DNA of 45,476 nucleotides from Bacteroidota bacterium. GTDB lineage: Bacteria; Bacteroidota; Bacteroidia; Palsa-948. The position numbers were made by a program, and so were the translations under genes. Shown here in pieces: positions 43,532 to 45,476 of the stretch. The DNA is taken from positions 1 through 45,476 of the forward strand of contig JACRAL010000136.1 of NCBI GenBank assembly GCA_016213435.1, read 5' to 3'. Each line of letters begins with the position of its first letter. Position 1 is the stretch's first letter. Below the pieces are notes generated by a model, which saw only the letters and a list, made by a program, of their open reading frames with translations, was not told the DNA's origin and ran no database searches.

Positions 43532-43614
43532 TAATTGTCTGTAAGCTTGGGTATGAAAACAAATTTCAAAATCAAGATGGAGGCGGCAATAAAGGCAATT
43601 TGCTGTTATGCCCA

Positions 43615-43640
43615 GTGCATTGTCTGCCGAGACAATGCAC
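43615..43640. repeat. Hairpin GTGCATTGTCT...AGACAATGCAC within an ATTGTCTG repeat cluster
   Basis: Two perfect 11-bp arms flank GCCG. The motif ATTGTCTGCCGAG occurs at 43619 and 43654, with looser forms at about 43670 and 43690. GTAATTGTCTGT also lies right after the DUF3108 stop (43531) and again at 45419-45430. The 516-bp gap 43532-44047 holds this cluster, the two small minus-strand ORFs below, and one copy of the cassette-end motif. Confidence 0.65.
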
Positions 43641-43727
43641 CACGAAACGATAAATTGTCTGCCGAGCAGTTATTTGTCGAGGGAATAATTTGTCTACCTC
43701 GAAGCCGCCAAAGGTGTCCGGTTAGAA

Positions 43728-43877
43728 TCAGCGTGGTGATGAGCAAAGTGTTTTTTTTCTCCGCTTGGCTTTGTCTTGGCGGATATATTCGCTCAATAAT
43801 CTATTTTCTTCTTCAGTCAATGGAGTAGGATCAAATACTACATCGAAGTCGTCTAGTGTGATTTTCTTTTTCTTCAT
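43728..43877 (-). CDS. Small antitoxin-like ORF (49 aa)
   Basis: The protein MKKKKITLDDFDVVFDPTPL continues with TEEENRLLSEYIRQDKAKRR. Its charged N-terminus and short acidic to basic layout resemble small antitoxins of type II toxin-antitoxin pairs, but no family is firmly recognised. Its ATG overlaps the stop of the 37-codon ORF upstream by 4 bp (ATGA), which is a sign of translational coupling. A plus-strand ORF (43535-43828) overlaps it and is considered spurious. Confidence 0.4.
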   Translation of the reverse strand: MKKKKITLDDFDVVFDPTPLTEEENRLLSEYIRQDKAKRRKKTLCSSPR

Positions 43878-43987
43878 TGGTCAAAGTATTTTTCGATTAA
43901 TGTTAGAGCAGTCTCTTTGTTAATAATCATGAGGTGTCCGCCAAAGTGAGAGGCGTTAAGACTTTCTTGGTAAGCACAAAGCTTCAT
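43874..43987 (-). CDS. Very small ORF (37 aa), possibly a fragment
   Basis: It reads MKLCAYQESLNASHFGGHLM, then IINKETALTLIEKYFDQ. The peptide looks like the C-terminal end of a larger domain, but no family was recognised. It starts about 34 bp from the cassette-end motif at 44021 and overlaps the next small ORF by 4 bp. Either it is a real small gene or the remnant of a toxin paired with the antitoxin-like ORF. Confidence 0.3.
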   Translation of the reverse strand: MKLCAYQESLNASHFGGHLMIINKETALTLIEKYFDQ

Positions 43988-44020
43988 TTAACCACTGAAC
44001 CGCCAATTTCTTGTAGGTGC

Positions 44021-44034
44021 TGTTATAGCCAGTT
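44021..44034. repeat. Cassette-end motif TGTTATAGCCAGTT, copy 1
   Basis: This 14-mer is identical to 45326-45339. It lies 14 bp after the 3' end of the minus-strand gene 44048-44911. The matching hairpin partner seen at copy 2 is not visible here, so this site may be truncated. Confidence 0.65.
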
Positions 44035-44047
44035 TTTCTTTCATCCG

Positions 44048-44911
44048 TCATTTTAGCTGAATTGATTCTACAATTTTTGTTAACTCGTCAATTGAAATGT
44101 CTGCGTTACTTAGCATTGCAATATGAACAATTAGTCCACTGTCAATTTGGTCGCTTGGTATTTTTTGTTCCTTCAAATACACTTGCTTGTCTGCGTTGTA
44201 AAAAGAAAGCCACTCAACTTTTTTGTCAAGAAATTTTCCAGCTACTTTTTTAGAGGTGCTTTCGTCATATCCATAGCTTTTATAAAAGTATGAAGGATGA
44301 TTGCCTGTATAGATAGTCAGTTTCACCCAATTGGTATCACTGTAATTTGAATACTTATGAAATTTAAAAACTTGAAAGTCATATTTCTGGTCAATGGTAA
44401 TACAGTAATTTTCAGGTATTGTAAATTTGAAGTCCTTTTTAGTTCCGAAAATTTTTAATGTTTCAACTCTTGCTGCTACATTGTTTTTTCTTGTCCCTTT
44501 TGTTAGATTTTGAAATACTTGTTCGGTCAATTTTACAAAGTCGCCTTTCAATTTAAAAGCTTCAGGATTTATATAAGCATTAATTTGAAAGATTGAATTG
44601 TCTTGTGCTTTAACCAATAAACTATTTACAAGAATTGCATTTTTAGTCGAGTCGAAAACTGTCGGTGTAGAAAGGATTGAAAGGATTTGGTCTTTGTCTG
44701 TAAGTGTTTTGCGTTGAAAGTTTAATTTGCTTTTCTCTTTTGAAACTTCCGCTAAAAGGTTGTTGTCGCCAAATAGATAAAGCTCTTGTGCAAAAAATAC
44801 AAGTTTCATATTGTCTATGTCAAGAACTATTCGCGTTTCTTGATTGATATTATGGTCGGCTGACATTATATCTGTTTCTCGGGCTTCATTTTTAGCAGCA
44901 TAGTGTTTCAT
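44048..44911 (-). CDS. Hypothetical protein in the cassette-like unit (possibly the 3' part of a frameshifted gene)
   Basis: The family was not recognised. The ATG at 44911 (MKHYAAKNEARETD) is chosen because the longer reading up to 45040 is in the shadow of the exported ORF below. The N-terminal half holds RIVLDIDNMKLVFFAQELYLFG. The C-terminal ~140 residues (DFKFTIPENYCITIDQKYDFQVFKFH to ISIDELTKIVESIQL) have a PsbP/DcrB-like strand and helix pattern, which is only a weak resemblance. It has no signal peptide of its own, but could get one if fused to the upstream ORF by a one-base correction near 44895. It lies between two copies of the cassette-end motif. Confidence 0.55.
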   Translation of the reverse strand: MKHYAAKNEARETDIMSADHNINQETRIVLDIDNMKLVFFAQELYLFGDNNLLAEVSKEKSKLNFQRKTLTDKDQILSILSTPTVFDSTKNAILVNSLLVKAQDNSIFQINAYINPEAFKLKGDFVKLTEQVFQNLTKGTRKNNVAARVETLKIFGTKKDFKFTIPENYCITIDQKYDFQVFKFHKYSNYSDTNWVKLTIYTGNHPSYFYKSYGYDESTSKKVAGKFLDKKVEWLSFYNADKQVYLKEQKIPSDQIDSGLIVHIAMLSNADISIDELTKIVESIQLK

Positions 44912-45191
44912 TTCCAGATTTGTCGTAGGAGTAATTGAAACTGTAAGATTCATTATGGCCGCAATGGATCTCCTGTATTTTCTTTCCTGTTTTGTCGTAA
45001 ATATATTGAAGGCAAGAATATTCCTTTTTCGTAGTGTCACAGGAATATATCTTTACAGATTTGACGTTATTTTTTATGATGAGTTGTCTTTGGATAATCG
45101 GGTCAAGAGTGTCTGGAGTTTCAGGATTTTGTCCCGAAACGGCTTTGTAAGCTAATAAAAGGATGGTCAATATATTTAATTGTCTATTCAT
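44892..45191 (-). CDS. Exported hypothetical protein (99 aa), 5' part of the cassette unit
   Basis: A signal peptide (MNRQLNILTILLLAYKAVSG) precedes a YD-repeat-like stretch: CLQYIYDKTGKKIQEIHCG, then YSFNYSYDKSGNETLCC and a stop. The stop TAA lies in a TGCTGCTAAAAATGAAGCC context; dropping one T would continue into KNEARETD, the start of the next ORF. So it is either the first gene of an overlapping pair or the 5' end of one exported protein broken by a frameshift. The ATG lies about 12 bp after the attC-like hairpin, as in integron cassettes. Confidence 0.5.
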   Translation of the reverse strand: MNRQLNILTILLLAYKAVSGQNPETPDTLDPIIQRQLIIKNNVKSVKIYSCDTTKKEYSCLQYIYDKTGKKIQEIHCGHNESYSFNYSYDKSGNETLCC

Positions 45192-45202
45192 ATAGAATTA
45201 CC

Positions 45203-45332
45203 GCTAACGTTTTGGGGGTTTGCGATGGCGGGGAGTTTTAGCACTAAACTTCATTCGGAGAACTGAACTTCCACCTTGCACAAATGTGTCTGCGAAGCAC
45301 GGAACCCCCGCTATCGCAAACCCCTTGTTATA
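45203..45332. other. attC-like hairpin (130 bp)
   Basis: The ends are GCTAACG and GTTATAG. Inside, GGGGTTTGCGATGGCGGGG (45215-45233) pairs with CCCCGCTATCGCAAACCCC (45306-45324) at 18 of 19 positions, around a ~72-base centre. The size and layout fit an integron recombination site read on the minus strand, but the outer boxes deviate from RYYYAAC/GTTRRRY. No integrase gene is in the window. Confidence 0.6.
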
Positions 45333-45339
45333 GCCAGTT
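45326..45339. repeat. Cassette-end motif TGTTATAGCCAGTT, copy 2
   Basis: It is identical to copy 1, 1305 bp away, and forms the right end of the hairpin described above. The remaining 137 bp to the window edge contain a GTAATTGTCTGT copy and no supported gene. Confidence 0.8.
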
Positions 45340-45476
45340 GTGTGTCCTGCGTTGTTACAGGGTACGAAGGATAAAAGTTCTTTGAAGTAACAACAAAACT
45401 GTAGTCAAGATGGTAGGCAGTAATTGTCTGTCGGAAACGAGCTTCGATTAGAAACCGAAGAGGTCTCACGCAAGAA

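Follow-up and report, generated by a model that had tools for sequence, protein, structure and literature searches.

A probable integron-like cassette array in decay at the end of a Bacteroidota contig

The window, by which we mean the whole 45,476-nucleotide stretch of contig JACRAL010000136.1 that was analysed, ends in a series of hairpin sites, truncated genes and an inserted element, with the following features:

43552 to 43623, minus strand: second half attC-like site, box GCACTGGGCATAAC (sequence match)
43624 to 43971, minus strand: leftover of another cassette, holding small ORFs and flanked by the half sites (sequence reading; boundaries inferred from the half sites)
43972 to 44034, minus strand: half attC-like site that keeps outer box ACTGGCTATAAC and the left arm but has lost its right half (sequence match)
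44022 to 45208, minus strand: what is probably left of two gene cassettes after their fusion, with GTTAGCGGTAAT as start box and ACTGGCTATAAC as end box
44048 to 44953, minus strand: second cassette gene, its 3' part, joined near 44905 to a replacement N-terminus (homologue comparison)
44892 to 45191, minus strand: first cassette gene, its 5' part, a 99 aa ORF (ORF list and translation)
45197 to 45338, minus strand: complete attC-like site (inverted repeat and folds)
45340 to 45476, plus strand: 5' end of a group II-intron-type repeat, beginning GTGTG (copy on another contig with an Rfam RF01999 match)

The sequence-only reading of this region had noted a 14-bp motif at both ends of a 1.3-kb unit, and TGTTATAGCCAGTT is indeed found in exact copies at 44021-44034 and 45326-45339. 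These are the only two exact copies in the genome, which rules out the 14-mer as a genome-wide repeat; the 14-mer is a recurring box, and the repeat is the hairpin. The near-perfect stem proposed for that hairpin is seen in 19-bp arms at 45215-45233 and 45306-45324, separated by 72 nt and 95% complementary, and both single strands fold strongly in the folding check that had been suggested (z = -4.25 and -3.71 relative to shuffles, with 0 of 200 shuffles folding as well). The distances from the gene start and gene end to hairpin and motif were likewise as claimed. The complete site is laid out as an outer box ACTGGCTATAAC (45338-45327), the 19-bp stem, a loop of ~72 nt, a spacer and an inner box CGTTAGCGGTAAT. 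Our covariance model R1 scores it at 146 bits, although the site is part of the R1 training set; support independent of that score comes from its 96-98% identity over 122-134 nt with sites in other families, where the boxes and flanking genes differ. A site had been expected at each end of the unit, and only the one at 45197-45338 is complete. The copy at 44021 is a half site. Counted from AAC, it begins with 53 nt that are identical to a complete site of this type from a different family (L082), the match stopping at 43972, and it also resembles sites at L221, L074, L135 and others. The other half site, at 43552-43623, is 97% identical over 72 nt to L069 from the same genus and 95% identical over 57 nt to a complete site on contig C88 of this genome; it had been overlooked, as had the inserted element that starts at 45340 directly behind the hairpin.

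The unit between the two motif copies does not hold one gene, as had been thought, but two out-of-frame ORFs from two different genes. The ORF of 99 aa (45191-44892) has a signal-peptide-like start and is YD-repeat-like, while that of 330 aa (45040-44048) has a homologue in genome G138 (L225) that is 54% identical from residue 19 only and has a signal peptide and N-terminus of its own. The start box GTTAGCGGTAAT and the end box ACTGGCTATAAC match at just two of six variable positions and are not complementary, whereas in intact arrays most neighbouring boxes match at all six. A deletion joining two cassettes would explain both the mismatched boxes and an ORF homology that starts at residue 19, and the 1.3-kb unit is best read as two cassettes fused by a deletion near 44905 and not as an intact cassette. 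A single frameshifted gene was ruled out, since the homologue shows that the N-terminus has been replaced.

Nine sites from this genome, aligned in gene orientation, share an invariant 5' box AACA and 3' box CGTT. R1 was built from four sites of this genome with the structure set by hand; RNAalifold returned no structure for the mixed alignment because sequence alignment misplaces the palindromic arms. The pattern GCTGTTATGNG was discarded as a search tool, two of its five matches being chance matches inside genes. R1, whose E-values are rough, matched in 102 of 149 relatives, in 128 of 396 genomes drawn evenly over the phylum Bacteroidota (about a third) and in none of 18 genomes of other phyla. 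Counts reach 63 sites per genome, in Flavobacterium enshiense, and F. luminosum has 46. The named organisms carrying arrays are Bacteroidota, and T9SS sorting domains place the window's genome in that phylum as well. The search of relatives for motif plus hairpin that had been proposed was therefore positive, and many genomes have arrays, so that motif plus hairpin are not confined to this locus and the hairpins do separate different genes. The near-identical sites with exchanged boxes and genes in genomes of different families appear to be a sign of recent horizontal movement of sites. Across 197 distinct sites the spacers are asymmetric (mostly 1-2 vs 5-7 nt), and an A.C pair on the gene strand, T.G on the bottom strand, is found at stem position 12 or 13 in nearly all (111 + 77 = 188 counts). 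Because of the asymmetric spacers and this conserved pair, we infer that bottom-strand folding is favoured, as in integrons. Classical attC sites have extrahelical bases at the corresponding stem position; here, in contrast, the stem is long and near-perfect, with the one conserved A.C pair 12-13 bp in.

In the relatives the sites are arranged in long arrays, all on one strand, and the cassette layout proposed for the window is real there, even though the unit in the window is a fused, decayed pair. Our survey of fetched arrays covered 233 sites and 165 adjacent same-strand pairs, with a site scan that demanded [CT]AACA and CGTT[AG] and did not demand complementarity. In integrons the first bases of a cassette and the end box of its attC site derive from one crossover and hence are complementary. 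The surveyed cassettes follow the same rule: the start box is exactly complementary to the end box at 6/6 variable positions in 130 of the 165 adjacent pairs, as against 1.85% of random pairs and 2.3% of non-adjacent pairs on the same stretch. The start box always carries A at position 11, and this base is never complementary to its partner. As to the attC-like box ends that had been proposed, the AAC/GTT core is invariant, whereas the consensus GTTRRRY fits only 3 of 130 boxes. The longest ORF lies on the site strand in 119 cassettes and on the opposite strand in 2, with a median start 49 nt past the box and a median stop 19 nt ahead of the next. Different genes between similar hairpins, the support that had been asked for, are abundant: clustering the 121 cassette proteins gives 113 families, with a cargo that includes restriction genes (Mrr and type II), methylases, HEPN genes and further genes of defence type, and T9SS proteins. 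One streptomycin adenylyltransferase family protein and one penicillin-binding transpeptidase-domain protein were also seen among the relatives' cassettes. On contig C211 of this genome (L016, 7897-9420), a methylase and endonuclease VII-like gene pair between attC-like sites is bracketed by inverted repeats of ~24 bp (GTTATGTGT..TTGGGGGCGCAT), a layout that departs from the usual cassette with its one hairpin.

Start and end boxes are, taken by themselves, inverted repeats, and one C211 unit has longer ones at its flanks, so that the cassettes might be thought of as separate MITE-like transposon units with short inverted ends, placed side by side by another transposase. We consider this very unlikely, given that one hairpin is shared per junction and that the units all point the same way behind a single recombinase; a non-systematic look turned up no target duplication.

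The element at 45340 lies opposite to the cassette genes, and the contig breaks inside it. A near-identical copy on contig C211 (L016, 9645-9947) matches RF01999 (group II D1-D4), and the element seems to be ~303 nt long because two 3' junctions end at the identical base; within these 303 nt only RF01999 matched, with no domain V and no reverse transcriptase. Four of its five 5' junctions in this genome lie right behind R1 sites. Group IIC-attC introns enter the bottom strand immediately behind an attC hairpin and so run against the cassette genes (PMC7923331), and insertion of this element behind the sites in the same manner lends independent support to the attC nature of the hairpins. It differs from those introns in its insertion point, which lies 8-14 nt past the box core where theirs is TTGT/T, and in its short length without a reverse transcriptase found. 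The same short dispersed element is present on contigs C88, C80, C167, C106 and C197, and its copies break the assembly. Intron-type elements can also target terminators (PMC7923331), and a T-run stands behind the 44021 box on the plus strand, as would suit hairpins that were transcription terminators or a dispersed intergenic repeat and not recombination sites. To such an origin we give scarcely any weight: it is already contradicted by the box statistics, leaving unexplained the exact start-end box complementarity over 0.2-3 kb of unrelated genes, as well as the same-strand order and the near-identical hairpins with swapped boxes.

The recombinase expected for an integron-like system adjoins the arrays in relatives. 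Tyrosine recombinase ORFs with retained catalytic motifs lie upstream of arrays in L073, L078, L082, L087 and others, and their best NCBIfam match is the XerA model NF040815 (206-232 bits, cut-off 220), with 188-208 bits against TIGR02249, under its cut-off of 265. XerA acts in chromosome dimer resolution; the array recombinases, in contrast, sit at cassette arrays and most have an extra N-terminal domain of ~100 residues. Residues 1-100 (e.g. L087, 12490-13632) form a conserved alpha/beta domain with a KFPYD...WS...W motif that is absent from IntI1. From the catalytic K to HxLRH there are 65-66 residues in nearly all array recombinases versus 107 in IntI1, and their match to IntI4 is split around the missing part; they thus lack the additional domain of IntI and are not IntI by the usual definition. 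That domain has been described as a defining feature of IntI (PMC9668308), and another study holds that integrons cannot function without the insertion, although its integron-like subgroup does not conserve it fully (PMC8138268). An AlphaFold model of the recombinase (pLDDT 88, pTM 0.62) has as its best PDB fold match 2a3v, IntI bound to attC. Phylogenetically they do not form one clade: the tree spreads them across several branches of a broad XerA/IntI-like group.

Test loci picked by the recombinase alone (40 Bacteroidota loci, 41 sites) place 40 of the 41 sites downstream and on the recombinase strand (binomial p ~2e-28, with 17 separate loci contributing and sites within one array not being independent), and a site is present in 13 of the 18 loci whose downstream sequence extends for at least 4 kb. 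In about ten loci an exact 9-bp complement of the first-site box is found 35-325 nt behind the recombinase stop, and in G025 and G052 a common TGGCGGGTATA is followed within a few bases by a GTTA box. A putative attI-like point thus adjoins the recombinase gene. This genome has ten PF00589 matches, none of the array-recombinase type (assembly gaps could hide one), in agreement with the earlier remark that no integrase is visible.

Given site polarity, an AAC/GTT core and intron targeting that all match integrons, the sites might belong to ordinary integrons as genuine attC sites, mobilized by a standard IntI that is seldom present or resides elsewhere, with the neighbouring recombinase incidental. 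One of the 149 relatives, G144 (L093, on its contig C40), does encode a genuine IntI (422 bits; 107 residues from K to HxLRH, as in IntI1). It is, however, the only one above the cut-off as against 102 relatives with sites, G144 itself has no R1 site match, and in many genera the recombinase beside the array precedes the sites on their strand and has an attI-like point to itself. We regard this explanation as very unlikely.

The reading that we prefer, to which we assign a probability of roughly 0.88, is that positions 43552-45476 represent the degraded terminal part of an array of integron-like gene cassettes resembling a CALIN, i.e. attC-type sites without an integrase; the earlier interpretation as an integron-like system was largely right. 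CALINs are recognized by at least two attC sites with no integrase nearby; the window has one full and two half sites, and contig C61 has five full sites and one partial one, with the box rule obeyed by eye. At the level of sequence, the evidence lies in site structure, array order, box complementarity, the different genes, recombinase position and the attI-like start. The intact form, as seen in relatives, comprises a recombinase gene, an attI-like insertion point and then same-strand cassettes, usually with one gene and one hairpin each. The hairpin would fold on the bottom strand, the recombinase would cut at the AAC/GTT box, and cassettes would be excised as circles, in which start and end box form a perfect pair, and inserted at the attI-like point or other sites. 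In this genome the recombinase is probably gone or not assembled, and the array appears to have been broken by deletions and by the group II-intron-type element targeting its sites.

The arrays resemble integrons and CALINs (IntI, attI, attC) in their succession of genes and attC-type sites, in an AAC...GTT core with crossover-type complementary cassette ends, in asymmetric spacers, in an attI-like start beside a tyrosine recombinase, and in their many different genes, including defence and some resistance-type genes. They are unlike integrons in that the recombinase is on the same strand as the cassettes and in the box, GTTR...GC.A here as opposed to GTTRRRY (core RYYYAAC / GTTRRRY). The system would thus work like an integron, yet it fails two defining features, since the IntI additional domain is missing and the boxes depart from GTTRRRY. 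In spirochaete reverse-oriented integrons of the Treponema denticola type the integrase gene is oriented as the cassettes are, and the integrase is a regular IntI with the additional domain; gene orientation is alike, and the additional domain sets them apart from the arrays described here.

The box rule, the arrays and the recombinase in relatives support the suggestion of a distant Bacteroidota version of an integron-type system. We think it reasonably probable that Bacteroidota carry a widespread integron family of their own, whose recombinases dispense with the IntI additional domain and recombine folded hairpins, with the bottom-strand T.G pair replacing the extrahelical bases, and in which cassettes and sites cross families. 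Integrons are hardly reported in Bacteroidota so far: the only complete one found in Bacteroidetes proper with IntegronFinder 2.0 is in Salinibacter ruber (PMC9024848), and one published collection of taxon models of attC has none for Bacteroidetes (PMC8352920). We found no description of an integron family of this kind in the open-access literature searched, and an earlier one elsewhere is possible. If active, the arrays across Bacteroidota may be an extensive and so far unrecorded means by which restriction, defence and some resistance-type genes are exchanged. The need for the IntI additional domain would then become a directly testable question, and the domain, held essential for integrons, would be one of several solutions if Bacteroidota do have their own family.

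Two further observations concern other contigs of this genome. The C61 array contains two similar cassettes of ~160 bp with no evident gene (L019, 3276-3440 and 4592-4756). On contig C76 (L018, 2290-3240), a lone cassette with matching boxes (GTTATATGCA) and a truncated hairpin lies outside arrays, possibly as an insertion at a secondary site.
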